A program made the position numbers and the translations under genes. From Astrocystis sublimbata (lineage: Eukaryota; Ascomycota; Sordariomycetes; Xylariales; Xylariaceae), in assembly GCA_022453515.1 (NCBI GenBank), contig JAJNNY010000135.1, positions 1-27,737 of the forward strand: a DNA stretch of 27,737 nt, given 5' to 3'. Below the pieces are notes generated by a model. That model saw only the letters and a list, made by a program, of their open reading frames with translations, did not search any database and was not told the origin of the DNA. Shown here in pieces: positions 2,650 to 27,737 of this stretch; the first letter of the stretch is position 1, and each line of letters opens with the position of its first letter.

Positions 2650-3251
2650 AGAGACAATTGAAGAGAGCTATAAATTGCACGGCTATGCTTCATGCTCTCT
2701 CTACCGCTGCTGGCAAGCAACTTTTGTACTCAGCACCTGGATGATTAAAGCCCGTGCTACACCTGAAAACCCCCCGCTGGACTTCCATTTCTTATGATAA
2801 TTAGTCTGTTGGTTAAGGCAGTTTCCACCGCTTGTAAGAAGCGTTTGACATTCAAAACAGATTTTCCTTTGGGATTAAAGCAAAGCGCGTGTACAAATTG
2901 CTCGACATAAACATTATTTGTTAATCGCCCCTCTTGAAATACACATAACACAATTAAACTTATTAAAACTCCGCTTTTCAAACTTTATCAACAAGTTGTG
3001 AATTAACTTGAACTGGCCTGGGGCGTACAACCATTTGGTCAAACAAGCTGGGCTAAGGAAGCGTTGATATTTCATAGCACCAGTGCTAGTGCGAGTGACC
3101 ATAAAGTGTAGATTAGCAATAGTACAAATACCTACAGGCCACAGCTGTTATTGGACAATTACAACAAACCATGTCTCCTTAGCACAATTAGAGAACCCTT
3201 TATCGATGCATGTTTGTCCAAAACCTGTTCACATTGGACCACTGCAGACAT
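2650..3251. other. Intergenic region between convergent genes
   Basis: About 600 bp between the 3' ends of the rhodopsin-domain gene (+) and the oxygenase gene (-). It is somewhat AT-rich. Two overlapping minus-strand frames at 2757-3102 have no recognisable domain and were not called as genes; a decayed transposon fragment is possible but unsupported. Confidence 0.5.
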
Positions 3252-6027: not shown

Positions 6028-6618
6028 CTAAGTACATCGTGGTCAACCTTGGAACCTTGGAAGGCCGGGAGAGTGGACACTGATGGGTGGATACCCGATA
6101 CTTGATGTACCGGTAGGTACGTCACCGGTGACATGCATTGAGGGGGGCCTAAGGTCTAGCTTCCGCACTTGCCGCATCCACCATACTCTTTCGAGTTAGA
6201 TACAGGTTTTCAAAAGTACCATGCCTAAGAGGCTAAGGCGCATCTAAACTTTACAGAGACAAGTCATGGCCGGGTCCGCTGATCGAGATCAACCAACCGA
6301 GCGAGCCGAGCTGCCTTGCTACATACGGTGCCTACTTTGAGTTGGCTGTGTTGAACGGGTAGGGCGATCCGCACCTGCATCTCGCGCACACGGGGACTTA
6401 GCCGACGCAACTTGTCACCTCGCTCAGCTTGATAATCGTCACACTTTTCGATAGCGAATAACGGGTTACGGCATGTCCGTAGATGGCTTGGAGCATTGCG
6501 GTTATCTAATCAGACCTAAGGGTGGGATATCTTCAATAGTACAGTCGAGTCAAATGTCCAAAACATGATAGCCCTGAAACAAGCCGTGTATCTTCCACAT
6601 GCCATTTGACGAGCCCGC
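6028..6618. other. Region downstream of the thioesterase-like gene (left arm)
   Basis: About 590 bp without a recognisable gene. It starts in TAGGTACCTA-type sequence and contains a tandem ACCTTGGA at about 6047-6062. It is mirrored at 27147-27737. Confidence 0.5.
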
Positions 6619-7345
6619 TTAAATCTTAGATTTTACATGTTCAGATTTGGCCTTTTCCCATTTCTCCTTGATGGCCTGAGCAGACTCAACTTTCTTTAGG
6701 TAGCCATCATATACCTTTATCCACCCTCCTCCAGCGCTACGGATGTCGACCGCACGACCGGTAGTAGCATTCATAAATGTGACGAACCCTTTAACCTCGG
6801 CTACTATGGTCTGCTGCTTGAGAGAAAAGAGAGATGTCGTTCCATGATACCGTGTTGGTTCCATACGGTCTGGTCTGTTGGCGACTATGAGCTGCCATGA
6901 GTGATCAGTGGAGGTTCAACCAGTAATTATGCGCAAGGTCCAAACATACCGAATCAGGGTATTTCACCTGTCGTCGAATCTGTAGCTCGATCTTATGGAC
7001 GACTGGGAGAATAGTCTTCGATTGAAGCATGTCAGAGTACTCGTCCTCGCTCATGAACTCGCTGTAGCTCTCCATCGTGCGATGAAAGCCAATACCTAAG
7101 AGCTCCATGAACTTGGATTGTTTGACATGGCCGAAGGGGTCTTGATCCTCTGCCCAGAGTACACCGCGCTCAGTCATGGTGCTGGGATCGTATCCCATGG
7201 CCTCGAGCTTCGAAAGAGCGCGGGCACGGAGGGGAGCGTACGGGTCGTCGCCTATCGGGTGCGGCTGCGGTGCACCAGATCGAGAGTACGGCGAATCATA
7301 CGCCGTCTGGGCTAACGCTGGCGCCTTCGCGGTACTGGGAGACAT
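6619..7345 (-). CDS. Hotdog-fold (4HBT-like) thioesterase-like protein, left copy
   Basis: Exon 1 (7345-6950) and exon 2 (6891-6619) join in phase 0 across a 58-nt intron (donor GTATGT, acceptor GGCAG) to give 222 residues. The core motif DQDPFGHVKQSKFMELL (Asp69, His73) resembles the 4HBT/YbgC-type thioesterase signature D-x-x-GH-x-N/Q, where the Asp is catalytic. It is followed by the strand VHKIELQIRRQVKYPDS and, in exon 2, TSLFSLKQQTIVAEVKGFVTFMN, typical hotdog strands. The C-terminus is charged and may be helical. Family members cleave acyl-CoA thioesters; here the substrate is unknown. The first ~40 residues are low-complexity and rich in Ser, Ala and Pro, possibly a targeting segment. 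It is divergently transcribed from the MFS gene. Hotdog assignment is fairly sure; activity is inferred. Confidence 0.75.
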
Positions 7346-8354
7346 GATAAAGACGCGAAAGAGCTGATGCAGTTTGCAGTTTGTTCGCGGAGAAATTCTA
7401 GTTCAAGTCAAGAAAGAATAGGATTCAAGTGCGAACTTTTCCTTTCCGATTAGGCCTGCAAATCATTCGAAATCTTGAAAGGTGGCGCGGGCCAACAAAG
7501 GGTGGTGGGCGGAGCACAAATCGTCGGTCTTACATTCCATCCATTCTTGCACATGTGTTCCTTTTCGATTTGTCATTTTGTACCTTGTACTACTGTGCAT
7601 ACTAGACAAACGGTACGGAGTATGCCGCAAGTCTGCGCAGCGCCACGTTTGTTGATCCCTTTAAAATGTCGGACATAAGCTCGCATCAACGGTCTGCATG
7701 TACTTTGCAGAAATACTACCCGACTTGCATGGATTAGGTATGCATGAGTCCCTCAACGCGATGGCCTGCCCGGAACCCTCTACACAGATACCAACGTCGA
7801 GATGCAAAGGTAGATGCCGAGGCTCAGGCAATGTTACATATAGCGATGGTTCACAGAACTACCAACAAACAGGACATGATGTCCTATCCACATCCCTGAA
7901 ATGTGCAATTTCCATTTAGCTCGATTGCTCTTCTTGACCGGGATATCAAGCCCAAGCAACACATAGGATGCAACGTTTAGCCAATCACATCCTAACATCA
8001 TATCTCAACCTATCTCCTGAAGTTGAGACCAACCAGCGCATGAATGAGGACCCACTTGAAAGATGGTGTTGGGGTGCGCCCTCTCCCCTATTCCGAAATC
8101 ACTACGCGTCTCGGGTTAATGAGGCTGGGGGTTGTACAAGTGTTTGAAGGGGACAATCAGAAAAACTGGTTGGTACTGTTTTCGATTCGTCTAGGTGCAA
8201 CTCTAGTCTATGTCTTGAGGCTCTGCAACAACTTACACATTTTATGATTCGTGAAATCGAGGCATCTCTTCACGTGCATTTCTCCCATCAGCTGTTAGCA
8301 AAGGCGCCTAAGTCTATCTATTTTGTTCCTATTAAATCTCCACCGTTTGCCACA
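7346..8354. promoter_or_regulatory. Divergent intergenic region, thioesterase-like / MFS (left arm)
   Basis: About 1 kb separates the two divergent start codons and should hold both promoters. Visible elements are a perfect 15-bp palindrome at 7871-7885, a CCAAT box at about 7980 and an inverted TCTCAAC/GTTGAGA pair at 8003-8028. Three short frames (7475-7678, 7698-7919, 8044-8247) show no family resemblance and were not called. The region is mirrored at 25411-26419. Confidence 0.45.
7871..7885. promoter_or_regulatory. Perfect palindrome AGGACATGATGTCCT, candidate dimer-binding site
   Basis: The 7-bp arms AGGACAT and ATGTCCT flank one central G. The site lies between two divergent genes, a plausible place for a homodimeric transcription factor. 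No factor can be named and a chance palindrome is possible. A mirror copy is at 25880-25894. Confidence 0.3.
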
Positions 8355-10379
8355 ATGACAACCCCCGCAACCTATTCCATCGAGATGCAGGGCCAACCGC
8401 AACATGACGAGACAATTAAAGCAGTGAACGCGGACCTGGTCGAAACCAGGTTGGCCCAGTCGGATAACAATGTATCAGACGGTGAGTTTGACATTGTGTA
8501 TCTCCAAGGCGCCCAATTCTGGCTCGTCTGCGCCGTGTAAGTCAACGCAGGCCTTCCCGATGGCGCCGACCGGGCTGACACAACACAGGGTTGCCATCAT
8601 GGTCTTCTTAGTAAACTTGGAAGTCCCCGTCGTGATCACCGCCTTGGTCTCTATTGCGAACGACTTGAAAGGCTTCGACATCATAAGCTGGATCGTTTCG
8701 AGTTACCTTCTCGGATACGTTGGCAAGTCTTGCGTCGCGTTTTTGTTCGAGCTGGGCTTACCTCTGTCCAGCTTTCATCGTTATCTGTGCCAAGTTCAGT
8801 GACATTTTCGGCCGCAAGATCATGTTCATACTGTCAATCATCATCTTCACCATCGCCTCTGGTGCATGCGCAGCTGCTCAAACCATGCCACAACTGTAAG
8901 CCGACGACACGCCCATCACGTATGTATCCCAAGTTCCCAACCGTGTTGACCACCGCCGCAGGATTGTCTTTCGCGGATTCCAGGGCGTTGGTGGTGGTGG
9001 ATGTTGGTCCCTCGCCACAATCTTCATCACTGAACTGGTCCCGCCCGTTAAACATGCCACGATCGTTTCGAACATAGCGATTGCTAGTGCGCTTGCGTTT
9101 CTTGTCGGGCCCATCATTGGTGGAGGCATAGCATCGAACGTCACGTGGAGATGGATCTTCATCATCAAGTGCGACTTTTTAGCCTCTGTCTCCTTTCTCA
9201 CAATAGCACTAACCAGTCTTTAGTATACCTCTATGCGCCCTAGCACTTATACTGGCTGTATTGTTCATCCCCAAAGAGTTTCCCTACCGTAGTCATTCTG
9301 AAAGCAGGTCGACATCCTACAAAACACTATTGGCGAGGTCCACCATTCAGCGCATTGACACACCAGGCACTATTTTGATCCTGCTTGCTACCTTGACCTT
9401 AGTTGCAGCCCTCCAAGAAGCTGGGCAACAATTTCCATGGAAGTCAGCCTACGTCATTACGTTATTAGTTATATCCGGTTTCCTTTGGGCTGGCTTAGCT
9501 ATCTGGGAACGACACGTGACTTTCTCGAATTCCATCCGTGAGCCAATTCTGCCATGGAGATTTCTCTTGAGTCGCGAGATTGTTGCAGTCTTATTGTAGG
9601 TCTCGAAGTGATCCTTCTGTCTTTGAGCTTCAGTGGCTAATCTACTCTCACAGAAACTTCGCTCTAGTTGGAGGGCCAACGCTGATCGGGACGTTGATTC
9701 TTCCTCAGCAATATCAGCTCGTATATGGCACGTCGGGTTTGGAGGCAGGAGTGAGAATCATCCCTTTCACTGCACTTATCGCGATTGGCGCAATGTTTTC
9801 GTCAGTTGCTGGAAAGCACAGGGTTTCGCCGGTATACCTCTTATTATTTGGGTCTTCTTTACAGATCCTCGGCTTTGCTCTCTTGGGGAAGTTGCCTGAT
9901 ACGCTAGAAATCCCTGCGCGCATATATGGTTTTCAAGTTCTTGCTGGTTTCGGCTGCGGCATGAATTTCTCCGTCCTTCTTGTCCTTATGCCCATTGTGA
10001 CCGAGAAACGTGACAATGGTAAGGCTTTCGAATAAACTACCAATATGTTGCCTGAGAACATACCGCTAACTACCCGGATTGTACAGCTGTTGGTCTCGGA
10101 GCGGGAAACCAACTGAGGTTTATTGGTGGCGCGGTCACTTTGTCAATTGCAACTGCCCTTTTCAATACCTACGTGCAACCTAGGTTGAAGTCACAACTGG
10201 GTCTTTCGAATGTCAACGAGCTTACTCAAGTTCTGCCGTCCCTAGTCCAAGAGGTACAAGAAGATGTCAGACATACCCTTGCCACGGGCTATAGTCGTCA
10301 AATTTTGGTTTTGGCGGTCTCGGCAGGCCTCCAGATTCCATCTACCCTGCTATTGTGGCGGAAGAAGCAACTTAAATAG
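8355..10379 (+). CDS. MFS transporter, DHA2 / 14-TM drug-efflux type, 7 exons, left copy
   Basis: Seven exons (8355-8536, 8589-8722, 8772-8895, 8962-9168, 9224-9595, 9654-10018, 10087-10379) join without a frame break into 558 residues, the usual length of 14-helix fungal efflux pumps. After a polar ~55-residue N-terminus come NLEVPVVITALVSIANDL (equivalent of LDxTIVxxALP), motif A-like KFSDIFGRKIM, and motif C-like GPIIGGGIA. The second intron (8723-8771) begins GCAAGT, a GC-AG intron whose removal restores a perfect family match (YLLGYVAFIVICAKFSDIFGRK). The other introns are GT-AG, 52-68 nt. It should export a small molecule across the plasma membrane in exchange for protons; the cargo is unknown. 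The clean seven-exon structure argues against frequent sequencing indels here. It sits between a thioesterase-like gene and the DUF1365 gene, converging with the latter. Confidence 0.92.
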
Positions 10380-11112
10380 TTCCGGCCAGATAAGAACTCT
10401 TAACAAGATGATAATAAAGTGAGATACTTTTAACCTTTATTAAACAGCTATTAAACTTAAAAAAATTTATTAATAAAAGGCAAAAAAACTAAAGTTTTAA
10501 CAACTTTTTTAGTACTTTTATTACGTTATAGCTGTAATATAAACCACTTAAAAGCTGTATATATAAACTACTTAAAAGCTATATATATAGACCTTTTTTT
10601 TAGCTGTTTATATAAACCACTTAGGAGCCGCACATATAGATCCCTCTTTAGCCGTACAGACCACCTGCACTTGGGAGCCTGTGGCTTGTGTGGCTAGGTA
10701 GGCTCCGTGGGGTCCTTTAGGTGTAGAAAATTACGCTTTTCGGCACTTAGAATTTGCTGGTTCCCGCGGCGTACACAAAACCTTTCGTTTCACTCCAGCA
10801 TTAAGAATGTGTAAGTAGGGTGGCTTATACAAGACGTGTTTTACCTGGGTGACGCAATCCTGGCCGGCAGGGGGTCGGCCGCCGGGAGGGTGGTTACTTT
10901 ACACAATGAGACGTATCCTGTCCTGTTTCTGTTTCTGTCCTTCAATAGGATGTAACTTTATTTTATTTCGATAATGTTGGTTTCACCGCTTCTTTACAAT
11001 AAGACGTTTTTTCAGGTGGCATGTTACCTTAAAAGGACAGCTGTCACATCTGGTCATACTCGCATAGAATACGACGTCGTGGTCACGGAGGACTCGTCGT
11101 TGGCTGTTCATT
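10380..11112. other. Region between convergent MFS and DUF1365 genes, AT-rich on the MFS side
   Basis: The first ~300 bp is AT-rich and includes the decayed tandem repeat described separately. The remainder (10683-11112) has normal composition, with an imperfect stem GGAGCCT/AGGCTCC at about 10674-10707. No gene was recognised. Mirrored at 22653-23385. Confidence 0.5.
10528..10682. repeat. Degenerate tandem repeat with a C-to-T decay gradient
   Basis: At least four imperfect copies of a unit containing CCACTTAGGAGCCG and a following ATATAGA are visible. Copies to the right keep G and C (CACTTGGGAGCCTG, CACTTAGGAGCCGCAC), while those to the left read CACTTAAAAGCTGTAT and TACTTAAAAGCTATAT. The changes are G-to-A and C-to-T, as expected from RIP. 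A mirror copy is at 23083-23237. Confidence 0.6.
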
Positions 11113-12996
11113 CTACTCGCCACCGATTGTATCCCATACCCAGGCTCGGATTCGTATAGCCAGCGAGGCTCTCATATATTGTAGCTGCACTTTGGCACTG
11201 CAATGGTTTCGTAGAAAAGGCTGCAGGAAGCATGACGACGTTCCTTGATGGTATGACAGTGGCGATCCTTCGTTGGTCGTCGAGGGTACCACTTTTCGTT
11301 GCATTGGAAGACCAGGACTTGGATAAGTCCCAAACGTAGGCTGTGTCTTCATCACCAACTGATAAAGTGACCATACGACCCTCAAAAGTCCTGCGTTCAC
11401 AGGATCGGAAATCACTTTCAAAGCGAATGGCCGTGCATTATCGCTGGCCTTTTGAGCGTCCTGTAGAAGACGTATCAGGTCGATGGGCCGATTGGACCAT
11501 ACCATGCGGTTCTCCTCCCAGGTACTCAGCATTGTGTGTGACAGGAGATCAGCAAGTCCTGCACTTAGGATCATGTGGCGATAAAATTTCGGTGTATGAA
11601 TCCGTAGGTCAACTAGATTTAGATTGGCTTGTGAAACTTGAGGCTGGCGCAGAGTGGCAATGTCCAGCAGGACATCCCCACCCCCAGCAACAGCACAACT
11701 GCCAATATCTCTGGGACTGTGAATCATAATTTGCATGTCCATCGGTAAGTAATGGCCGATGTAGCGTATGTATTCTGCGAAAATGCAGCCAAGGAACCGC
11801 TCCGAGGGTGTCGCCGCTCGAGCAATAGACGACGTATTTGGTTCTGGACGATACCACATATGTAGTCCACGCACGCGGGCTAGTAACAACGCTTGATAGA
11901 CTATTCTTGGAACTGCAAGTAAGGAATCAGCGCAAAGTATTCTCTCTAGGACCGGCGGCTCTTACACGTCGCGAACACTGTCCACGCCCAGTAAATCATG
12001 CACCGCAACAAAGGAATCAATGTAGATTCTGACGGAGTTATTGCCGGAGCGTCAAGCCCCCAGCGAGCCACAAGCTTCGGGCAGTTCTTGGAAGACCACA
12101 AGGTGACCCGAACGTCAAGGTCTTCGTTCCGTAATGGATCAGTAGTCGTCAAGCTATAGGTTCCTTTTCTCGAATTGAAAGGGGACACATGGAAGTCTTT
12201 GGCACATGTTTCTCTGAAAGTGTCGGCGCTCGTCTCAGATGATGGAAAGATGTATACACGTTTTTCTCCGAAGGTGTTATTCACTTCCGCCAGCACATAG
12301 CGAAGGCAAAGATCCCGTGTATACAAGTACCAGAATGAAGCTGGGCTGAAGCCGAAAGTAAAAATTCTAGCGCTAGTGAAAAGATAAACCACTGGAAACT
12401 GAGACGGGTCAAGTCCCTGAAAACGAATTGTCATCTCTGAGGCCTGAGCACGTGTAAGGATATTCATGGGGACATACATGTGTCTTTAGAAACTCGTCCA
12501 GACATTGTGATAGCGTGCAATGAGATTGAAAACGACCAAGATGATGTCTAGCGTCTACGTGAAGTAATCCGCGTTTCCACCACTTTGACTCATCGACAGA
12601 CAATGTCCAGCTTGACGTTGGCTTGCGTACGGTGATTCCGACCGACAGACAAGAGTAAATGAAGGCATGGCTTCTGGGGAATAGCCGGCGATGTGAGATT
12701 TTGCATCTTAGAAGTTGTGTCTTGTCAACGAGAATCCCACGACCAGAACGAGACCGTGAAACACGATTTATAGATCTACGGACGCGAAAATTGGAATAAA
12801 TTAGTCCGCAATAGTTGGCAATAATTACTGAGAAGAATGCGACGGGAACCAAGCCGAATGCTCTTACTCCCAGGCGGTCCACAACAGCTTCAAACACAGG
12901 GGCGACAGAATACATATTAGTTCGTACTTCCTGCACGTCGATGTTGAAGCTGGTTGAGTGATGACACAATTTTTTAAGTGCGTAGCTAGTGATCAT
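11113..12996 (-). CDS. DUF1365 family protein, 3 exons, left copy
   Basis: Exons 12996-12478, 12416-11966 and 11912-11113 give 589 residues. Intron 1 is 61 nt (GTATGT...TTTTCAG) and intron 2 is 53 nt. An N-terminal hydrophobic segment (FGLVPVAFFSVIIANYCGLIY, about residues 48-68) may be a membrane anchor. DUF1365 hallmarks follow in order: HRRLFPRSHAFIYSC, the core FGFSPASFWYLY near 194-205, EVNNTFGEKRVYIFP near 217-231, and KDFHVSPF near 246-253. The C-terminal ~270 residues (WYRPEP, LRIHTPKFY) are the extension found in fungal members. The biochemical role of DUF1365 is unproven. In bacteria its genes adjoin an FAD amine-oxidase-like protein and a cyclopropane-fatty-acid-synthase-like methyltransferase, implying lipid modification. 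Here the FAD partner lies about 1.8 kb away, beyond the methyltransferase relic. Confidence 0.88.
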
Positions 12997-13090
12997 GTGT
13001 AGATTTTATTGAAGTGAAAATTAAATAGCGGAAGTCCGCGAGTGCTGTTTGAACTGCTTTGCTATAAAGAATCATCATGGGCGCTCGTGG

Positions 13091-13965
13091 CTAAGAAGAA
13101 CCCTTCCTACCCACAATTGTCCATCTGGTAAAGTCCCAACTTGCTCCCTTGCTCGTCTCCTCTATCACCCTGGGTATCAGAATATGGAGGTCCCTGGCAA
13201 AGCCTTAACTCCCAGTAGCACGGGCCACTAGCTTGTGAATGACGAGGTTGCACTCGTGCATTGAAAATGCGAGATAGCCCGGAGCATCCTGTTTGACAGT
13301 TTGAACATCGCGCAGGCCTGCCTTGACCGCTGTCTCGGCTAAGTGCAACCAAGTTGGCGGCAGGCGCGGATCCTGTCCCGATGACAGCTCAATGAGACTC
13401 TTCAACCCCTCGGTTTTTCCTCCAGGCTGTGCCGTAGCAGTGCGAAGCGAGGACATATCGACCTCATCCCACTGGAGGTAACCACCAGGCTCTGCCAATA
13501 AGACCAGAATAGGTCAGTGCCGTGTTACGTTGCATGCAGAGGATATGCCCAACGTGATGATTGATCTAGGAAGAGTCCGAGGCGGCGCGTCGGCTAGGTA
13601 GGACGAAGATCAAAAGGCGGACATGCACAATGTCGTACTGGCCAACCAGGTCTTCAGGCACATCGCTCCTGATGTCCCACTCCCGGAATGAAACATTGGA
13701 CGGCAACCACTCCGCTGGGGGCGTGGCTTTAAGTGAGATGTCCAAGCCATCCAACTGCACGATCGCGGGCAATCGCACACCCATATCCGTGAGCCAGACC
13801 CTGCCCATTTGTTAGTCGAGCTCGTCCTCCAAGCCACTCGGAGGAGCTTTGCCTCGCTTTGCGAGTGCCAATATCGGCAATGTGGTGGTGGGGCTTGGGG
13901 GCCAGAATCGCTGGGCGGAGGCGGTAGCCGAAGAGTTCCACCCACTCACATGTCACTTGCAGCTA
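13091..13965 (-). pseudogene. LaeA/UMTA-like SAM methyltransferase relic, left copy
   Basis: Translated pieces match a fungal class-I SAM methyltransferase: WVELFGYRLRPAIL and IADIGT (start of motif I), VWLTDMGVRLP, a QLDGLDISL motif and HVRLLIFVL, then PGGYLQWDEVDMSSLR and a C-terminal stretch ending FTRWTIVGRK. They do not join. After IADIGT the glycine motif is not restored by any splice with a normal donor. After HVRLLIFVL the frame closes before any plausible donor. An in-frame TAA at 13205-13207, where the family suggests a CAA codon, is followed by 37 more family-like codons before the natural stop at 13091-13093. An upstream frame shift near 13960 is also likely. An intact gene would methylate a small molecule. 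It lies between DUF1365 (same strand) and the divergent FAD gene. Confidence 0.75.
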
Positions 13966-14811
13966 TGTATCTCAAACCCCAATTCGGGAAAGTAGGCTCC
14001 GGTACCATGTGTGTTGCATCGCGGGTGGGACTGCAAAGTCTCTTGTGGACAAGAACGTACACTTTTATGAATCAAATAGCAGGGGTTTTAGCTACTTCAA
14101 GTGCAGTGCCTATTAAATGTAAGAGGAAGTACTGGTAGTGGAATAGACTGATAATAGAGGCTGGGCATGTAGAAGTACTGATGTGTTGAGATGGCTTCTA
14201 AAGGGTGGTGATGTGACAACAGTGTACTCTCGCACGGCACTCTCGTTCTCTGACTACGGCGCTCTGCCGTGTTAGAGCCACGAGAGCCAGGAGGCTGTGG
14301 GTATGACTTAGAGGGACCGCATTTGCAATTGAGTTTGAGCGGCTCAATGTCAATTGAAGTACCTATGACAGGCCCACCAGCCATTCCATTCGCTACAAGA
14401 AATGTCACCAGAAACAATATTCAAATACGACGGCCCAACGGGACAATGCATGTAGCGAGGGTACGAGCGCTTGAGTCAGTTCAAGCGCCTCTACTATGCG
14501 CTCGGTGCGCTTGAGAGTACATTACCTATATATACGAATTTTATCACACAACAGGTGTTAGATTCGTTGTGATCAGATGTATCATTGTTTGACAGCTACC
14601 ATAGCCACCACTTTGTGACCGGGTACTCTACTGATTAATCCACTACTATTACTTAGTCAACCCTTGACACCTGTTAGTACCCTGAGAAATCCCAAGGATT
14701 AAAAAAGGGCAGCATTCAACTAATGACGGAAGCAACAGCCACTGACTAATGCCCTAACTGGTCGAATTTATAGTTACTAAACAACAAACCACGCTGTTAT
14801 CAGTAATATTA
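13966..14811. promoter_or_regulatory. Divergent intergenic region, methyltransferase relic / FAD gene (left arm)
   Basis: Roughly 850 bp, probably including the lost 5' exon of the methyltransferase and the FAD gene promoter. It contains the CGCTTGA site cluster and a TATATATA run at about 14527. Short frames here have no family resemblance. Mirrored at 18954-19799. Confidence 0.45.
14466..14516. promoter_or_regulatory. Cluster of three GCGCTTGA sites, candidate regulator-binding sites
   Basis: GCGCTTGA at 14467-14474 faces its exact reverse complement TCAAGCGC at 14481-14488 across 6 bp, and a third GCGCTTGA lies at 14508-14515. The cluster is about 300 bp upstream of the FAD start codon and just before a TATA-like run. 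This could be a paired operator for a dimeric factor; no factor can be named. Confidence 0.35.
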
Positions 14812-16570
14812 ATGAATTCCCACGCAGATACCCTCTCTCCCGATCGGCGGCGTGTTGCCATTGTCGGCGGAGGGGTCTCAGGGATCGCATGTTCGTGGGA
14901 GCTTTTGAAGCTTGGGTATACAGTAGACATGTTTGAGTCTGAAGGAACACTTGGTGGACACGCAAATTCTGTACCATTTCGAGGCAACGGCCTAAGTATA
15001 GATGTCGACACAGGTTTCATTGCATGGGAACAGGCGACATATCGTGAGTTCACCCTTGAGCACAAGAGATGAATCTCTAACAACATTATTACAGCGCGAT
15101 TCTCAGAGTTTCTGTCTGAGCTTGGTGTACCTGGTATCCCCACAGATATGTCATTCAGTGTCTCAACCACGGATAAAAGCGGCTTCGGATGGAGCAGCCA
15201 CTCCGTCTGGACTGTGATCGGAAGCTACTCGAATCTATTGCGTTTTGAGTTCTGGCGACTGCTGTTCGAAATAGTTTGGTTTGCTCTATTCGCTCCGATA
15301 GATATGCTCTTTCGGGATGCCCAGTTGTCCAGATCTGCACAGGGTTACGCTCATAACCCCGGTAGTAGACTTGATACACGCAAGCCAACAGCTGTATATG
15401 AGACTTTGGGCGCCTATCTTGAAAGAAACAGATACTCGACCATCTTCATTGACTACTTCCTGCTACCCATGTTGGCTTCACCATGGTGCACGGATCCGAA
15501 AGAACTTGCCCAAACTTTTCCAGTAATCCCTATGATACAATTCATGCAAGTCCCCTTGTTTTTCCCTGTACGCTCAATCTTTCTGCGGTTTATGGATGTT
15601 AATTACTAACTTTAGCGTAGGCTCAAGCATAACTTGCTAGATACGCCAATAAAGAAGCTTCACTGGCAATCATTCAAACATGGATCAAAAGTTTACATAG
15701 ACGCAGCGCAGCAACTCATCTCTCGGCATCACCGCTTGTATCTCAATTCACCCATCACTCAAATAGAGAGAAGAAAAGATGGTGTTATCTTGCGGATACC
15801 AAATCATGAATCCCGACGCTACGATCAAGTCGTGCTCGCGATACCCGCAAAGCATGCCCTCACCCTTCTTGGTGACCATGCCACAGACCATGAGCGAGAA
15901 ATTCTTGGCTGTTTTCGGACAACTCAGAATACGTGCTACTTACACTCCGATACTTCCGTGAGTGACGCCTTGCATGTTCTTGATGACCTTGAAAGGTAGC
16001 AGGTAATTTTAACAACTTTGATGGAATGCTAATTCCTTTCAGTTTCTTCCTAGTAATCCAAGGAACCATGCAGCATGGAATTGTCTGCTAGAGGACACAG
16101 ACTTTGGTGTTGATGGCGGGGATGCGGCGCGCCACACGGTCATTGAAGCACGAAAAACACGAAAGGTATCTGTGACCTTTGATATGAATAAGCTACAGGC
16201 AATTCCATTTCCAGGCCAGTCGGGAAGTCCTGGGAGAGTCCTGGTTACAATGAACCCAGTCTCTATTCCAGAGGCACCTCAAGCAGTTCATAGATACGAC
16301 CACCCTCTACTGACATTCGAAAGTCTTGAAATAATGCCTCGCCTTCGCGAGATCAACGGAACTAACAAGATTAGTTTCGCCGGTGCTTGGATGGGTTTCG
16401 GATTTCATGAAGATGGTTTTTCGGCGGGGATCCACGCTGCTCAAATCGTGGCCCTTGGGCATAAATCTGCTGGGCCATTGAACCTTGTTGCAGACACCAG
16501 GAAGATGGCCCTGAGCCAAGTAGGACTACTAAGGTCTTTAGTGAGATTAGTAGTGTACGCTTTTCGCTAG
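14812..16570 (+). CDS. FAD-dependent amine-oxidase-like oxidoreductase (COG2907-like), 4 exons, left copy
   Basis: Exons 14812-15043, 15095-15545, 15621-15957 and 16043-16570 give 515 residues. Introns are 51, 75 and 85 nt; the second starts GCAAGT (a GC-AG intron) and contains a perfect TACTAAC branch site. Removing it restores the conserved FPVIPMIQFM-LKHNLLDT stretch. The N-terminus is a dinucleotide-binding fold: VAIVGGGVSG (glycines 19, 20, 21, 24), acidic Glu42 for the FAD ribose, then GTLGGH. VDTGFIAWEQATYPRF follows, a COG2907 signature. The C-terminal GAWMGFGFHEDGFSAG is the second FAD-contact region. Bacterial relatives accompany DUF1365 and CFA-synthase-like methyltransferases; some act as fatty-acyl desaturases in furan fatty acid synthesis. 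Similar lipid chemistry is inferred here. The gene ends about 300 bp from the palindrome centre, tail to tail with its copy. Confidence 0.9.
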
Positions 16571-17194
16571 TTTAATTTAGCATGTATTATAAAAAGATTT
16601 TACTATTTATATAGCTAGCTAACACTTATATAAGCCTAGTTTTTAGCTTTTATTAAAAAGGCGTTTTTTAATATAATTAAATAAAATTAAAAATAATAGT
16701 ATTTTTTATTAATTTAATTAATTTTAATATATTATAATATTTTTATTAAATAATTAAATAATATTACTTTTATAATATTTAATATTTTATAAAAATTTAA
16801 TTATTATATATTATTGTTTTAAAAATATAAAATTAAAAATATTTTAGTTATATAATAGTTTAACTTATATTATATATTTATTATACTAAATATTAATATA
16901 AGTTAAACTATTATATAACTAAAATATTTTTAATTTTATATTTTTAAACAATAATATATAATAATTAAATTTTTATAAAATATTAAATATTATAAAAAGT
17001 AATATTATTTAATTATTTAATTAAAAATATTATAATATATTAAAATTAATTAAATTAATAAAAAATACTATTATTTTTAATTTTATTTAATTATATTAAA
17101 AACGCCTTTTTAATAAAAGCTAAAAACTAGGCTTATATAAGTGTTAGCTAGCTTATAAATAGTAAAATCTTTTTATAATACATGCTAAATTAAA
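16571..17194. other. AT-rich core of the palindrome
   Basis: About 620 bp, overwhelmingly A and T, between the stop codons of the two converging FAD genes. The two halves are mutual reverse complements apart from five single-base length differences: near 16613/17153 (TATATAGC against TATAAGC), 16664-16669/17096-17100 (six T against five), 16741-16746/17021-17026 (TTTTTATT against TTTTTAATT), 16768-16771/16994-16998 (four T against five) and 16817-16820/16946-16948 (four T against three). Most lie in homopolymer runs. Confidence 0.9.
16873..16893. other. Unpaired spacer at the palindrome hinge
   Basis: Pairing of the two arms stops at 16872/16894. The ~21 bp between them are almost entirely A and T and not self-complementary over their length. 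They would form the loop if the repeat folded back. Confidence 0.85.
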
Positions 17195-18953
17195 CTAGCG
17201 AAAAGCGTACACTACTAATCTCACTAAAGACCTTAGTAGTCCTACTTGGCTCAGGGCCATCTTCCTGGTGTCTGCAACAAGGTTCAATGGCCCAGCAGAT
17301 TTATGCCCAAGGGCCACGATTTGAGCAGCGTGGATCCCCGCCGAAAAACCATCTTCATGAAATCCGAAACCCATCCAAGCACCGGCGAAACTAATCTTGT
17401 TAGTTCCGTTGATCTCGCGAAGGCGAGGCATTATTTCAAGACTTTCGAATGTCAGTAGAGGGTGGTCGTATCTATGAACTGCTTGAGGTGCCTCTGGAAT
17501 AGAGACTGGGTTCATTGTAACCAGGACTCTCCCAGGACTTCCCGACTGGCCTGGAAATGGAATTGCCTGTAGCTTATTCATATCAAAGGTCACAGATACC
17601 TTTCGTGTTTTTCGTGCTTCAATGACCGTGTGGCGCGCCGCATCCCCGCCATCAACACCAAAGTCTGTGTCCTCTAGCAGACAATTCCATGCTGCATGGT
17701 TCCTTGGATTACTAGGAAGAAACTGAAAGGAATTAGCATTCCATCAAAGTTGTTAAAATTACCTGCTACCTTTCAAGGTCATCAAGAACATGCAAGGCGT
17801 CACTCACGGAAGTATCGGAGTGTAAGTAGCACGTATTCTGAGTTGTCCGAAAACAGCCAAGAATTTCTCGCTCATGGTCTGTGGCATGGTCACCAAGAAG
17901 GGTGAGGGCATGCTTTGCGGGTATCGCGAGCACGACTTGATCGTAGCGTCGGGATTCATGATTTGGTATCCGCAAGATAACACCATCTTTTCTTCTCTCT
18001 ATTTGAGTGATGGGTGAATTGAGATACAAGCGGTGATGCCGAGAGATGAGTTGCTGCGCTGCGTCTATGTAAACTTTTGATCCATGTTTGAATGATTGCC
18101 AGTGAAGCTTCTTTATTGGCGTATCTAGCAAGTTATGCTTGAGCCTACGCTAAAGTTAGTAATTAACATCCATAAACCGCAGAAAGATTGAGCGTACAGG
18201 GAAAAACAAGGGGACTTGCATGAATTGTATCATAGGGATTACTGGAAAAGTTTGGGCAAGTTCTTTCGGATCCGTGCACCATGGTGAAGCCAACATGGGT
18301 AGCAGGAAGTAGTCAATGAAGATGGTCGAGTATCTGTTTCTTTCAAGATAGGCGCCCAAAGTCTCATATACAGCTGTTGGCTTGCGTGTATCAAGTCTAC
18401 TACCGGGGTTATGAGCGTAACCCTGTGCAGATCTGGACAACTGGGCATCCCGAAAGAGCATATCTATCGGAGCGAATAGAGCAAACCAAACTATTTCGAA
18501 CAGCAGTCGCCAGAACTCAAAACGCAATAGATTCGAGTAGCTTCCGATCACAGTCCAGACGGAGTGGCTGCTCCATCCGAAGCCGCTTTTATCCGTGGTT
18601 GAGACACTGAATGACATATCTGTGGGGATACCAGGTACACCAAGCTCAGACAGAAACTCTGAGAATCGCGCTGTAATAATGTTGTTAGAGATTCATCTCT
18701 TGTGCTCAAGGGTGAACTCACGATATGTCGCCTGTTCCCATGCAATGAAACCTGTGTCGACATCTATACTTAGGCCGTTGCCTCGAAATGGTACAGAATT
18801 TGCGTGTCCACCAAGTGTTCCTTCAGACTCAAACATGTCTACTGTATACCCAAGCTTCAAAAGCTCCCACGAACATGCGATCCCTGAGACCCCTCCGCCG
18901 ACAATGGCAACACGCCGCCGATCGGGAGAGAGGGTATCTGCGTGGGAATTCAT
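17195..18953 (-). CDS. FAD-dependent amine-oxidase-like oxidoreductase, right copy
   Basis: Mirror copy of the gene at 14812-16570 with the same 515-residue product. Exons are 18953-18722, 18670-18220, 18144-17808 and 17722-17195, including the same GC-AG second intron. No difference from the left copy was found in the coding frames. Its function and the significance of the DUF1365 neighbour are as described for the left copy. If the palindrome is a fold-back artefact, this is not a second gene. Confidence 0.85.
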
Positions 18954-19799
18954 TAATATTACTGATAACAGCGTGGTTTGTTGTTTAGTAACTATAAATT
19001 CGACCAGTTAGGGCATTAGTCAGTGGCTGTTGCTTCCGTCATTAGTTGAATGCTGCCCTTTTTTAATCCTTGGGATTTCTCAGGGTACTAACAGGTGTCA
19101 AGGGTTGACTAAGTAATAGTAGTGGATTAATCAGTAGAGTACCCGGTCACAAAGTGGTGGCTATGGTAGCTGTCAAACAATGATACATCTGATCACAACG
19201 AATCTAACACCTGTTGTGTGATAAAATTCGTATATATAGGTAATGTACTCTCAAGCGCACCGAGCGCATAGTAGAGGCGCTTGAACTGACTCAAGCGCTC
19301 GTACCCTCGCTACATGCATTGTCCCGTTGGGCCGTCGTATTTGAATATTGTTTCTGGTGACATTTCTTGTAGCGAATGGAATGGCTGGTGGGCCTGTCAT
19401 AGGTACTTCAATTGACATTGAGCCGCTCAAACTCAATTGCAAATGCGGTCCCTCTAAGTCATACCCACAGCCTCCTGGCTCTCGTGGCTCTAACACGGCA
19501 GAGCGCCGTAGTCAGAGAACGAGAGTGCCGTGCGAGAGTACACTGTTGTCACATCACCACCCTTTAGAAGCCATCTCAACACATCAGTACTTCTACATGC
19601 CCAGCCTCTATTATCAGTCTATTCCACTACCAGTACTTCCTCTTACATTTAATAGGCACTGCACTTGAAGTAGCTAAAACCCCTGCTATTTGATTCATAA
19701 AAGTGTACGTTCTTGTCCACAAGAGACTTTGCAGTCCCACCCGCGATGCAACACACATGGTACCGGAGCCTACTTTCCCGAATTGGGGTTTGAGATACA
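18954..19799. promoter_or_regulatory. Divergent intergenic region, FAD gene / methyltransferase relic (right arm)
   Basis: Mirror of 13966-14811. It carries the same GCGCTTGA cluster at 19249-19299 and the TATATATA run near 19232. No gene was recognised. Confidence 0.45.
19249..19299. promoter_or_regulatory. GCGCTTGA site cluster, right copy
   Basis: Mirror of 14466-14516, with the inverted pair at 19277-19298 and the third site at 19250-19257. Same tentative reading as a candidate operator for the FAD gene. Confidence 0.35.
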
Positions 19800-20674
19800 T
19801 AGCTGCAAGTGACATGTGAGTGGGTGGAACTCTTCGGCTACCGCCTCCGCCCAGCGATTCTGGCCCCCAAGCCCCACCACCACATTGCCGATATTGGCAC
19901 TCGCAAAGCGAGGCAAAGCTCCTCCGAGTGGCTTGGAGGACGAGCTCGACTAACAAATGGGCAGGGTCTGGCTCACGGATATGGGTGTGCGATTGCCCGC
20001 GATCGTGCAGTTGGATGGCTTGGACATCTCACTTAAAGCCACGCCCCCAGCGGAGTGGTTGCCGTCCAATGTTTCATTCCGGGAGTGGGACATCAGGAGC
20101 GATGTGCCTGAAGACCTGGTTGGCCAGTACGACATTGTGCATGTCCGCCTTTTGATCTTCGTCCTACCTAGCCGACGCGCCGCCTCGGACTCTTCCTAGA
20201 TCAATCATCACGTTGGGCATATCCTCTGCATGCAACGTAACACGGCACTGACCTATTCTGGTCTTATTGGCAGAGCCTGGTGGTTACCTCCAGTGGGATG
20301 AGGTCGATATGTCCTCGCTTCGCACTGCTACGGCACAGCCTGGAGGAAAAACCGAGGGGTTGAAGAGTCTCATTGAGCTGTCATCGGGACAGGATCCGCG
20401 CCTGCCGCCAACTTGGTTGCACTTAGCCGAGACAGCGGTCAAGGCAGGCCTGCGCGATGTTCAAACTGTCAAACAGGATGCTCCGGGCTATCTCGCATTT
20501 TCAATGCACGAGTGCAACCTCGTCATTCACAAGCTAGTGGCCCGTGCTACTGGGAGTTAAGGCTTTGCCAGGGACCTCCATATTCTGATACCCAGGGTGA
20601 TAGAGGAGACGAGCAAGGGAGCAAGTTGGGACTTTACCAGATGGACAATTGTGGGTAGGAAGGGTTCTTCTTAG
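19800..20674 (+). pseudogene. LaeA/UMTA-like SAM methyltransferase relic, right copy
   Basis: Mirror of the relic at 13091-13965, with the same lesions. The in-frame TAA is at 20558-20560 and the natural stop at 20672-20674. Family-like codons resume directly after the premature stop (GFARDLHILIPRV, then FTRWTIVGRK). The segment around 19902-19964 is the failed motif-I splice. Sharing every lesion with the left copy means decay came before the duplication, or that both are one sequence assembled twice. Confidence 0.75.
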
Positions 20675-20768
20675 CCACGAGCGCCCATGATGATTCTTTA
20701 TAGCAAAGCAGTTCAAACAGCACTCGCGGACTTCCGCTATTTAATTTTCACTTCAATAAAATCTACAC

Positions 20769-22652
20769 ATGATCACTAGCTACGCACTTAAAAAATTGTG
20801 TCATCACTCAACCAGCTTCAACATCGACGTGCAGGAAGTACGAACTAATATGTATTCTGTCGCCCCTGTGTTTGAAGCTGTTGTGGACCGCCTGGGAGTA
20901 AGAGCATTCGGCTTGGTTCCCGTCGCATTCTTCTCAGTAATTATTGCCAACTATTGCGGACTAATTTATTCCAATTTTCGCGTCCGTAGATCTATAAATC
21001 GTGTTTCACGGTCTCGTTCTGGTCGTGGGATTCTCGTTGACAAGACACAACTTCTAAGATGCAAAATCTCACATCGCCGGCTATTCCCCAGAAGCCATGC
21101 CTTCATTTACTCTTGTCTGTCGGTCGGAATCACCGTACGCAAGCCAACGTCAAGCTGGACATTGTCTGTCGATGAGTCAAAGTGGTGGAAACGCGGATTA
21201 CTTCACGTAGACGCTAGACATCATCTTGGTCGTTTTCAATCTCATTGCACGCTATCACAATGTCTGGACGAGTTTCTAAAGACACATGTATGTCCCCATG
21301 AATATCCTTACACGTGCTCAGGCCTCAGAGATGACAATTCGTTTTCAGGGACTTGACCCGTCTCAGTTTCCAGTGGTTTATCTTTTCACTAGCGCTAGAA
21401 TTTTTACTTTCGGCTTCAGCCCAGCTTCATTCTGGTACTTGTATACACGGGATCTTTGCCTTCGCTATGTGCTGGCGGAAGTGAATAACACCTTCGGAGA
21501 AAAACGTGTATACATCTTTCCATCATCTGAGACGAGCGCCGACACTTTCAGAGAAACATGTGCCAAAGACTTCCATGTGTCCCCTTTCAATTCGAGAAAA
21601 GGAACCTATAGCTTGACGACTACTGATCCATTACGGAACGAAGACCTTGACGTTCGGGTCACCTTGTGGTCTTCCAAGAACTGCCCGAAGCTTGTGGCTC
21701 GCTGGGGGCTTGACGCTCCGGCAATAACTCCGTCAGAATCTACATTGATTCCTTTGTTGCGGTGCATGATTTACTGGGCGTGGACAGTGTTCGCGACGTG
21801 TAAGAGCCGCCGGTCCTAGAGAGAATACTTTGCGCTGATTCCTTACTTGCAGTTCCAAGAATAGTCTATCAAGCGTTGTTACTAGCCCGCGTGCGTGGAC
21901 TACATATGTGGTATCGTCCAGAACCAAATACGTCGTCTATTGCTCGAGCGGCGACACCCTCGGAGCGGTTCCTTGGCTGCATTTTCGCAGAATACATACG
22001 CTACATCGGCCATTACTTACCGATGGACATGCAAATTATGATTCACAGTCCCAGAGATATTGGCAGTTGTGCTGTTGCTGGGGGTGGGGATGTCCTGCTG
22101 GACATTGCCACTCTGCGCCAGCCTCAAGTTTCACAAGCCAATCTAAATCTAGTTGACCTACGGATTCATACACCGAAATTTTATCGCCACATGATCCTAA
22201 GTGCAGGACTTGCTGATCTCCTGTCACACACAATGCTGAGTACCTGGGAGGAGAACCGCATGGTATGGTCCAATCGGCCCATCGACCTGATACGTCTTCT
22301 ACAGGACGCTCAAAAGGCCAGCGATAATGCACGGCCATTCGCTTTGAAAGTGATTTCCGATCCTGTGAACGCAGGACTTTTGAGGGTCGTATGGTCACTT
22401 TATCAGTTGGTGATGAAGACACAGCCTACGTTTGGGACTTATCCAAGTCCTGGTCTTCCAATGCAACGAAAAGTGGTACCCTCGACGACCAACGAAGGAT
22501 CGCCACTGTCATACCATCAAGGAACGTCGTCATGCTTCCTGCAGCCTTTTCTACGAAACCATTGCAGTGCCAAAGTGCAGCTACAATATATGAGAGCCTC
22601 GCTGGCTATACGAATCCGAGCCTGGGTATGGGATACAATCGGTGGCGAGTAG
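20769..22652 (+). CDS. DUF1365 family protein, right copy
   Basis: Mirror copy of the gene at 11113-12996 with the same 589-residue product. Exons are 20769-21287, 21349-21799 and 21853-22652. The motifs FGFSPASFWYLY, NNTFGEKRVYIFP and KDFHVSPF lie in exon 2, and the fungal C-terminal extension in exon 3. It is divergent from the FAD copy across the methyltransferase relic, as on the left. Confidence 0.85.
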
Positions 22653-23385
22653 AATGAACAGCCAACGACGAGTCCTCCGTGACCACGACGTCGTATTCTA
22701 TGCGAGTATGACCAGATGTGACAGCTGTCCTTTTAAGGTAACATGCCACCTGAAAAAACGTCTTATTGTAAAGAAGCGGTGAAACCAACATTATCGAAAT
22801 AAAATAAAGTTACATCCTATTGAAGGACAGAAACAGAAACAGGACAGGATACGTCTCATTGTGTAAAGTAACCACCCTCCCGGCGGCCGACCCCCTGCCG
22901 GCCAGGATTGCGTCACCCAGGTAAAACACGTCTTGTATAAGCCACCCTACTTACACATTCTTAATGCTGGAGTGAAACGAAAGGTTTTGTGTACGCCGCG
23001 GGAACCAGCAAATTCTAAGTGCCGAAAAGCGTAATTTTCTACACCTAAAGGACCCCACGGAGCCTACCTAGCCACACAAGCCACAGGCTCCCAAGTGCAG
23101 GTGGTCTGTACGGCTAAAGAGGGATCTATATGTGCGGCTCCTAAGTGGTTTATATAAACAGCTAAAAAAAAGGTCTATATATATAGCTTTTAAGTAGTTT
23201 ATATATACAGCTTTTAAGTGGTTTATATTACAGCTATAACGTAATAAAAGTACTAAAAAAGTTGTTAAAACTTTAGTTTTTTTGCCTTTTATTAATAAAT
23301 TTTTTTAAGTTTAATAGCTGTTTAATAAAGGTTAAAAGTATCTCACTTTATTATCATCTTGTTAAGAGTTCTTATCTGGCCGGAA
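22653..23385. other. Region between convergent DUF1365 and MFS genes (right arm)
   Basis: Mirror of 10380-11112. It includes the decayed tandem repeat at 23083-23237 and an AT-rich stretch next to the MFS 3' end. No gene was recognised. Confidence 0.5.
23083..23237. repeat. Degenerate tandem repeat with decay gradient, right copy
   Basis: Mirror of 10528-10682. The G/C-retaining copies lie toward 23083 and the A/T-converted copies toward 23237. Confidence 0.6.
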
Positions 23386-25410
23386 CTATTTAAGTTGCTT
23401 CTTCCGCCACAATAGCAGGGTAGATGGAATCTGGAGGCCTGCCGAGACCGCCAAAACCAAAATTTGACGACTATAGCCCGTGGCAAGGGTATGTCTGACA
23501 TCTTCTTGTACCTCTTGGACTAGGGACGGCAGAACTTGAGTAAGCTCGTTGACATTCGAAAGACCCAGTTGTGACTTCAACCTAGGTTGCACGTAGGTAT
23601 TGAAAAGGGCAGTTGCAATTGACAAAGTGACCGCGCCACCAATAAACCTCAGTTGGTTTCCCGCTCCGAGACCAACAGCTGTACAATCCGGGTAGTTAGC
23701 GGTATGTTCTCAGGCAACATATTGGTAGTTTATTCGAAAGCCTTACCATTGTCACGTTTCTCGGTCACAATGGGCATAAGGACAAGAAGGACGGAGAAAT
23801 TCATGCCGCAGCCGAAACCAGCAAGAACTTGAAAACCATATATGCGCGCAGGGATTTCTAGCGTATCAGGCAACTTCCCCAAGAGAGCAAAGCCGAGGAT
23901 CTGTAAAGAAGACCCAAATAATAAGAGGTATACCGGCGAAACCCTGTGCTTTCCAGCAACTGACGAAAACATTGCGCCAATCGCGATAAGTGCAGTGAAA
24001 GGGATGATTCTCACTCCTGCCTCCAAACCCGACGTGCCATATACGAGCTGATATTGCTGAGGAAGAATCAACGTCCCGATCAGCGTTGGCCCTCCAACTA
24101 GAGCGAAGTTTCTGTGAGAGTAGATTAGCCACTGAAGCTCAAAGACAGAAGGATCACTTCGAGACCTACAATAAGACTGCAACAATCTCGCGACTCAAGA
24201 GAAATCTCCATGGCAGAATTGGCTCACGGATGGAATTCGAGAAAGTCACGTGTCGTTCCCAGATAGCTAAGCCAGCCCAAAGGAAACCGGATATAACTAA
24301 TAACGTAATGACGTAGGCTGACTTCCATGGAAATTGTTGCCCAGCTTCTTGGAGGGCTGCAACTAAGGTCAAGGTAGCAAGCAGGATCAAAATAGTGCCT
24401 GGTGTGTCAATGCGCTGAATGGTGGACCTCGCCAATAGTGTTTTGTAGGATGTCGACCTGCTTTCAGAATGACTACGGTAGGGAAACTCTTTGGGGATGA
24501 ACAATACAGCCAGTATAAGTGCTAGGGCGCATAGAGGTATACTAAAGACTGGTTAGTGCTATTGTGAGAAAGGAGACAGAGGCTAAAAAGTCGCACTTGA
24601 TGATGAAGATCCATCTCCACGTGACGTTCGATGCTATGCCTCCACCAATGATGGGCCCGACAAGAAACGCAAGCGCACTAGCAATCGCTATGTTCGAAAC
24701 GATCGTGGCATGTTTAACGGGCGGGACCAGTTCAGTGATGAAGATTGTGGCGAGGGACCAACATCCACCACCACCAACGCCCTGGAATCCGCGAAAGACA
24801 ATCCTGCGGCGGTGGTCAACACGGTTGGGAACTTGGGATACATACGTGATGGGCGTGTCGTCGGCTTACAGTTGTGGCATGGTTTGAGCAGCTGCGCATG
24901 CACCAGAGGCGATGGTGAAGATGATGATTGACAGTATGAACATGATCTTGCGGCCGAAAATGTCACTGAACTTGGCACAGATAACGATGAAAGCTGGACA
25001 GAGGTAAGCCCAGCTCGAACAAAAACGCGACGCAAGACTTGCCAACGTATCCGAGAAGGTAACTCGAAACGATCCAGCTTATGATGTCGAAGCCTTTCAA
25101 GTCGTTCGCAATAGAGACCAAGGCGGTGATCACGACGGGGACTTCCAAGTTTACTAAGAAGACCATGATGGCAACCCTGTGTTGTGTCAGCCCGGTCGGC
25201 GCCATCGGGAAGGCCTGCGTTGACTTACACGGCGCAGACGAGCCAGAATTGGGCGCCTTGGAGATACACAATGTCAAACTCACCGTCTGATACATTGTTA
25301 TCCGACTGGGCCAACCTGGTTTCGACCAGGTCCGCGTTCACTGCTTTAATTGTCTCGTCATGTTGCGGTTGGCCCTGCATCTCGATGGAATAGGTTGCGG
25401 GGGTTGTCAT
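23386..25410 (-). CDS. MFS transporter, DHA2 / 14-TM drug-efflux type, right copy
   Basis: Mirror copy of the gene at 8355-10379 with the same 558-residue product. Exons are 25410-25229, 25176-25043, 24993-24870, 24803-24597, 24541-24170, 24111-23747 and 23678-23386, with the same GC-AG second intron. Efflux role inferred as for the left copy. Confidence 0.87.
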
Positions 25411-26419
25411 TGTGGCAAACGGTGGAGATTTAATAGGAACAAAATAGATAGACTTAGGCGCCTTTGCTAACAGCTGATGGGAGAAATGCACGTGAAGAGA
25501 TGCCTCGATTTCACGAATCATAAAATGTGTAAGTTGTTGCAGAGCCTCAAGACATAGACTAGAGTTGCACCTAGACGAATCGAAAACAGTACCAACCAGT
25601 TTTTCTGATTGTCCCCTTCAAACACTTGTACAACCCCCAGCCTCATTAACCCGAGACGCGTAGTGATTTCGGAATAGGGGAGAGGGCGCACCCCAACACC
25701 ATCTTTCAAGTGGGTCCTCATTCATGCGCTGGTTGGTCTCAACTTCAGGAGATAGGTTGAGATATGATGTTAGGATGTGATTGGCTAAACGTTGCATCCT
25801 ATGTGTTGCTTGGGCTTGATATCCCGGTCAAGAAGAGCAATCGAGCTAAATGGAAATTGCACATTTCAGGGATGTGGATAGGACATCATGTCCTGTTTGT
25901 TGGTAGTTCTGTGAACCATCGCTATATGTAACATTGCCTGAGCCTCGGCATCTACCTTTGCATCTCGACGTTGGTATCTGTGTAGAGGGTTCCGGGCAGG
26001 CCATCGCGTTGAGGGACTCATGCATACCTAATCCATGCAAGTCGGGTAGTATTTCTGCAAAGTACATGCAGACCGTTGATGCGAGCTTATGTCCGACATT
26101 TTAAAGGGATCAACAAACGTGGCGCTGCGCAGACTTGCGGCATACTCCGTACCGTTTGTCTAGTATGCACAGTAGTACAAGGTACAAAATGACAAATCGA
26201 AAAGGAACACATGTGCAAGAATGGATGGAATGTAAGACCGACGATTTGTGCTCCGCCCACCACCCTTTGTTGGCCCGCGCCACCTTTCAAGATTTCGAAT
26301 GATTTGCAGGCCTAATCGGAAAGGAAAAGTTCGCACTTGAATCCTATTCTTTCTTGACTTGAACTAGAATTTCTCCGCGAACAAACTGCAAACTGCATCA
26401 GCTCTTTCGCGTCTTTATC
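25411..26419. promoter_or_regulatory. Divergent intergenic region, MFS / thioesterase-like (right arm)
   Basis: Mirror of 7346-8354, with the perfect 15-bp palindrome at 25880-25894 and the CCAAT box in reverse orientation near 25780. Nothing else was recognised. Confidence 0.45.
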
Positions 26420-27146
26420 ATGTCTCCCAGTACCGCGAAGGCGCCAGCGTTAGCCCAGACGGCGTATGATTCGCCGTACTCTCGATCTGGTGCACCGCAG
26501 CCGCACCCGATAGGCGACGACCCGTACGCTCCCCTCCGTGCCCGCGCTCTTTCGAAGCTCGAGGCCATGGGATACGATCCCAGCACCATGACTGAGCGCG
26601 GTGTACTCTGGGCAGAGGATCAAGACCCCTTCGGCCATGTCAAACAATCCAAGTTCATGGAGCTCTTAGGTATTGGCTTTCATCGCACGATGGAGAGCTA
26701 CAGCGAGTTCATGAGCGAGGACGAGTACTCTGACATGCTTCAATCGAAGACTATTCTCCCAGTCGTCCATAAGATCGAGCTACAGATTCGACGACAGGTG
26801 AAATACCCTGATTCGGTATGTTTGGACCTTGCGCATAATTACTGGTTGAACCTCCACTGATCACTCATGGCAGCTCATAGTCGCCAACAGACCAGACCGT
26901 ATGGAACCAACACGGTATCATGGAACGACATCTCTCTTTTCTCTCAAGCAGCAGACCATAGTAGCCGAGGTTAAAGGGTTCGTCACATTTATGAATGCTA
27001 CTACCGGTCGTGCGGTCGACATCCGTAGCGCTGGAGGAGGGTGGATAAAGGTATATGATGGCTACCTAAAGAAAGTTGAGTCTGCTCAGGCCATCAAGGA
27101 GAAATGGGAAAAGGCCAAATCTGAACATGTAAAATCTAAGATTTAA
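26420..27146 (+). CDS. Hotdog-fold (4HBT-like) thioesterase-like protein, right copy
   Basis: Mirror copy of the gene at 6619-7345 with the same 222-residue product. Exons are 26420-26815 and 26874-27146, separated by a 58-nt intron. The DQDPFGHV motif is in exon 1. Same functional reading as the left copy. Confidence 0.72.
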
Positions 27147-27737
27147 GCGGGCTCGTCAAATGGCATGTGGAAGATACACGGCTTGTTTCAGGGCTATCAT
27201 GTTTTGGACATTTGACTCGACTGTACTATTGAAGATATCCCACCCTTAGGTCTGATTAGATAACCGCAATGCTCCAAGCCATCTACGGACATGCCGTAAC
27301 CCGTTATTCGCTATCGAAAAGTGTGACGATTATCAAGCTGAGCGAGGTGACAAGTTGCGTCGGCTAAGTCCCCGTGTGCGCGAGATGCAGGTGCGGATCG
27401 CCCTACCCGTTCAACACAGCCAACTCAAAGTAGGCACCGTATGTAGCAAGGCAGCTCGGCTCGCTCGGTTGGTTGATCTCGATCAGCGGACCCGGCCATG
27501 ACTTGTCTCTGTAAAGTTTAGATGCGCCTTAGCCTCTTAGGCATGGTACTTTTGAAAACCTGTATCTAACTCGAAAGAGTATGGTGGATGCGGCAAGTGC
27601 GGAAGCTAGACCTTAGGCCCCCCTCAATGCATGTCACCGGTGACGTACCTACCGGTACATCAAGTATCGGGTATCCACCCATCAGTGTCCACTCTCCCGG
27701 CCTTCCAAGGTTCCAAGGTTGACCACGATGTACTTAG
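27147..27737. other. Region downstream of the thioesterase-like gene (right arm), to window end
   Basis: Mirror of 6028-6618. No gene was recognised. The sequence stops at the window edge while still matching the left arm. Confidence 0.5.

Follow-up and report, generated by a model that had tools for sequence, protein, structure and literature searches.

A giant palindrome at the end of an Astrocystis sublimbata contig is very probably a fold-back chimera

The right arm of a giant palindrome on contig C41 of the Astrocystis sublimbata assembly is very probably a fold-back (snap-back) chimera and not a feature of the chromosome. The assembly comprises 42,594,959 bases in 189 contigs, and the window, that is the whole stretch of DNA analysed, is the entire contig C41 (27,737 bases). 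An artefact was favoured because the same arrangement recurred at unrelated sites, lay flush with contig ends, lacked substitutions between its arms and, at one site, had a junction that survived unfolded elsewhere in the assembly. No unfolded counterpart of the hinge of C41 was found there, so the conclusion for this contig is drawn by analogy. The features of the contig are listed in Table 1.

Table 1. Features of contig C41 (positions within the window of 27,737 bases).
Feature	Position	Strand	Basis
Single-copy flank, unmirrored	1..6027		Full-length only here in the own-genome search; no self-alignment partner
Left arm, interpreted as the true single-copy locus	6028..16880	+	Self-alignment, arm comparison
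AT-rich stretch around the hinge, RIP-like composition	16600..17165		Composition
Tip hairpin: 7-bp stem, 6-nt loop (16881-16886), 1-base bulge (16873)	16874..16893		Folding
Right arm, repeating the left arm in inverted orientation up to the last contig base; taken as the fold-back copy	16887..27737	-	

The inverted duplication spanned positions 6028-27737, centred at 16882/16883. A giant near-perfect palindrome, as claimed in the original prediction, was borne out by a gapped self-alignment that covered this whole span at 99.936% identity, with 10,584 uninterrupted identical bases (6028 to 16611) making up the outer part of each arm. Position x had been said to mirror position 33765-x exactly; this held for 10,725 of the 10,854 paired positions, whereas 20 other pairing offsets (33755-33775) gave matches at only about 25-28% of positions. 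A palindrome arising by chance was rejected on these figures. All differences between the arms lay within 270 bases of the hinge and consisted of the tip and six 1-base A/T indels (16612, 16664, 16744, 16767, 16817 and 16873 in left-arm coordinates). Comparison of arm against arm revealed no substitutions outside the tip and no C-to-T changes, though the contig is partly RIP-like in composition. The palindrome terminated exactly at base 27737, which is the true end of the contig and not, as had been supposed, a window edge falling inside the right arm; since the window is the complete contig, the arms as assembled are 10.85 kb long and untouched by any such edge. Unique sequence flanked the palindrome on the left only, the right side being the contig end. 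An old palindrome with arms held identical by gene conversion would likewise show long identical arms, but is extremely unlikely here, given that the differences were exclusively A/T indels adjoining the hinge, that substitutions were lacking and that no unique sequence followed the right arm. When the whole left arm served as query, only one of three candidates was scored and even the window itself went undetected, which makes that search uninformative on copy number.

The central 300 bases around the hinge had a GC content of 0.037. Within the unfolded part of C41 itself the hinge window ranked among the AT-richest 0.42% of windows, the corresponding values being 0.16% for the hinge of contig C2 and 0.26% for that of C20, both described below. 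Among 3,880 windows from 20 contig starts, in which the hinges of C2 and C20 were themselves counted, none was as AT-rich as the hinge of C41, against 2.9% for C2 and 0.31% for C20. Folding of the tip gave a short bulged hairpin leading directly into the perfect arm, and the hinge previously put at about 21 bp shrank to an unpaired loop of about 6 nt. Searches of the assembly for an unfolded counterpart of the hinge returned only AT-rich similarities of 66-80% identity (on C134, C108 and C140), and no partner contig continuing past the hinge was found there. A 28-base tip pattern, with up to three mismatches allowed, matched nowhere in the genome except at the tip itself; a 20-base pattern with up to two mismatches gave 19 matches, two of them C41 itself and the other 17 each carrying two mismatches. 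Natural hairpin and copied arm are indistinguishable in this contig. No Rfam match in the window reached its gathering score.

The same architecture was found in other contigs. Twenty other contigs (C1 to C20) were sampled over their first 10 kb, and two of them, C2 and C20, carried a large inverted duplication, in both cases from base 1. The other 18 showed no inverted duplication of more than 200 bases at the settings used, which counts against an artefact; the last 8.6 kb of C134 also lacked a large one. The palindrome of C20 ran from base 1 to 10570, with all 5,268 paired positions ahead of the tip in agreement. That of C2 ran from 1 to 7062 and differed between its arms by one indel in a C run, the remaining differences being confined to the tip; neither contig had substitutions outside the tip. 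Two further cases were not randomly drawn. Contig C132 surfaced through mirrored TTAGGG matches and has arms of about 18.5 kb, of which the sequence compared comprised the hinge, a near-perfect palindrome, and the last 201 bases, which are the reverse complement of C132:259224-259424. Contig C48 surfaced in the search with the C2 hinge, and its base 1 pairs with 7131. It was identical to C2 at the three spots compared (1-150, 6980-7250 and 24969-25126), so that C48 is possibly an alternative version of the end seen in C2, and the two are not independent. In all five contigs (C41, C2, C20, C48 and C132) the palindrome was flush with one end of the contig, and in none did the sequence leave the palindrome on the folded side. 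The hinge sequences of C2, C20 and C132 differed from one another. Sequences resembling the C20 tip and its flank were present on many other contigs; in the two copies that were read (C98 and C183) the tip-like stretch was not accompanied by the perfect arm of C20.

These observations bear on the proposal that the structure is a hairpin telomere, a palindromic chromosome end or a linear mini-chromosome. Copied hairpin ends have a closed hairpin tip with identical arms, and the tip and arms of C41 resemble them. Such an end is nonetheless scarcely credible here: ordinary TTAGGG arrays exist in the assembly (for example on C15, 58,027 bases long, where one extends to base 58025), whereas the window holds only single TTAGGG/CCCTAA hexamers, the 28-base tip pattern matched only itself, the hinges of the other contigs are different sequences, and neither telomeric nor shared terminal sequence was found at the hinge of C41. 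As a separate observation, two TTAGGG patches about 492 bases apart occurred both at the end of C15 (C15:57306-58025) and internally on C132 (C132:275136-275658, mirrored on its folded arm), and are perhaps a shared subtelomeric repeat.

At one site the hairpin was seen both folded and unfolded. In contig C48 an imperfect natural hairpin whose outer stem measures 8 bp (C48:3510-3555) separates the left flank (L) from the right flank (R), and R is the continuation sequence of the 555-kb contig C106 (C48 matches C106:15-237). Read in the same direction, C2 passes from L through the hairpin into reverse-complemented L, while C106 starts with 14 bases of reverse-complemented R followed by the hairpin and R. 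Both depart from the natural order at the final base of the natural stem, and C48 enters R for about 125 bases before folding back onto the C2 arm. From this arrangement of sequences, the hairpin evidently joined C2 to C106 and was folded back from each side, and the pattern in C2 and C106 is the one expected when a strand end primes on itself, or is sealed, at a hairpin. The unfolded hairpin had a folding energy of -7.7 kcal/mol and 6 of 200 shuffled sequences folded equally well, so that its stability is only moderate, which counts against an artefact. A unit of about 50 bases was present twice in C106 (C106:1-450) and once in C48 (C48:3510-3682), the junction otherwise matching.

C41 has the same anatomy as the other cases, that is a single-copy flank, an AT-rich stretch, a bulged hairpin and a flush inverted copy devoid of substitutions. 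As in a fold-back, the right half of its palindrome repeats the left half in reverse complement across a very small spacer, no new sequence lies past the copied arm (likewise in C2, C20, C48 and C132), and the arrangement recurs at unrelated places (2 of 20 contig starts, plus C48 and C132); an unfolded hinge is present for the C2/C106 site and was not found for C41. A 3' end at a natural AT-rich quasi-palindrome would have annealed to its own strand and been extended or sealed, and reads would then run through the insert and return on the opposite strand. The assembler would follow such a fold-back read wherever few ordinary reads spanned the site. The contig as assembled enters the AT-rich stretch, turns at the small imperfect hairpin and repeats itself backwards to its end. 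The outer arms would be identical because one locus was written twice, and the A/T indels near the hinge would be uncorrected sequencing errors. The step of origin may have been amplification, library preparation or sequencing.

Published precedents exist. About 0.55-0.6% of ONT genomic reads were reported to be fold-backs; typically under half of these had a gap exceeding 11 bases between their halves, and they recurred at the same places (PMC12870357). C41 resembles these reads in its symmetric inverted copy with almost nothing between the halves and in recurrence, but here the pattern stands in assembled contigs rather than in reads; the same source gives virtually no fold-backs for PacBio HiFi, which would count against an artefact if C41 came from that platform. 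Palindromes in 0.5% of non-amplified PacBio reads were explained by false positives and by adaptors that had been missed or were absent, with amplification a frequent source of palindromes and palindromic reads harmful to de novo assembly (PMC6218980). In those reads too the sequence returns as its own reverse complement; a missed SMRTbell adaptor, however, requires no natural hairpin at the turn, whereas the turn in C41 sits at one. In multiple displacement amplification, more than 85% of rearrangements were inverted and more than 70% were primed at 2-21 complementary bases (PMC1855051). The likeness lies in a 3' end priming on a nearby complementary stretch with a mostly inverted product, and this route would apply to C41 only if its DNA had been amplified. 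Palindromic contigs have been mentioned elsewhere as a likely assembly error (PMC9455707).

The tip anatomy of C41 is also what fold-back in living cells would leave, and this counts against an artefact. The contig could then record a genuine event of very recent date in the sequenced culture, either an inverted duplication or a break capped by a hairpin, formed by in-cell fold-back priming at the AT-rich hairpin and subsequently replicated. A short-hairpin tip with perfect arms is the expected remnant of such priming, identical arms suit a very young event, and priming at short natural inverted repeats has been described for yeast lacking Sae2/Mre11 nuclease (PMC10622511). We nevertheless regard this origin as improbable. 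Several hinges of this one assembly, unrelated to each other, show the structure, which in each of the five contigs seen is flush with one end and has no exit from the palindrome, whereas the yeast product is a dicentric chromosome that is later rearranged (PMC10622511). Moreover, the unfolded junction survives at the C2/C106 site, and the arms lack C-to-T changes despite the RIP-like parts of the contig; if repeat-induced mutation is active in this lineage, a 10-kb duplicate free of such changes would be unexpected. It is very improbable, too, that AT-rich quasi-palindromes, perhaps themselves derived from repeat-induced mutation, fold and break in living nuclei to give recurrent hairpin-capped ends and short-lived inverted duplications, of which C41, C2, C20, C48, C106 and C132 would be snapshots. 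If folding did occur in living cells, it would suggest that AT-rich hairpins are fragile sites of a fungal genome. The cause had originally been left open between several origins; among these the fold-back chimera is now strongly supported, by five flush contigs and one unfolded counterpart, while a palindromic end, a mini-chromosome and gene conversion are unsupported.

As a fold-back artefact, about 10.85 kb of C41 and the genes it carries would have been written twice, which matters for annotation, and at least four further contigs (C2, C20, C48 and C132) would carry the same error. The C2/C48/C106 site offers a guide to recognition, namely a palindrome flush with a contig end that turns at a hairpin existing unfolded elsewhere, and C41 would be a clear worked example of hairpins yielding false palindromes at contig ends.

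Open reading frames in the window encoded Pfam domains of fungal rhodopsin, 2OG-Fe(II) oxygenase, DUF1365 and FAD amine oxidase, and matches to MFS and DIOX_N fell under the curated cut-offs. Together with the TTAGGG array of C15 and the RIP-like indices given below, these domains suggest a filamentous ascomycete. A DUF1365 search gave 394 proteins at E <= 0.001 among 411 candidates, and at least four of them carry names of lichen fungi. The DUF1365 and FAD amine oxidase genes lie close together (11946-12996 and 15634-15999); such gene pairs occur in lipid-modifying gene clusters. RIP-like dinucleotide indices were obtained for 1-1500, 5501-6500, 10001-11500, 16501-17500 and 22501-24000, the last block approximately mirroring 10001-11500. 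In the AT-rich, RIP-like left end, positions 198-613 form a self-inverted repeat that is imperfect (79% identity) and has inverted ends; it is perhaps a transposon-like element altered by mutation, and the own-genome search found no further copy of it. Two other parts of the window, 3391-3695 and 6619-7277, had relatives of 66-69% identity neighbouring each other on C120:332601-335224, which perhaps represent a related gene cluster.
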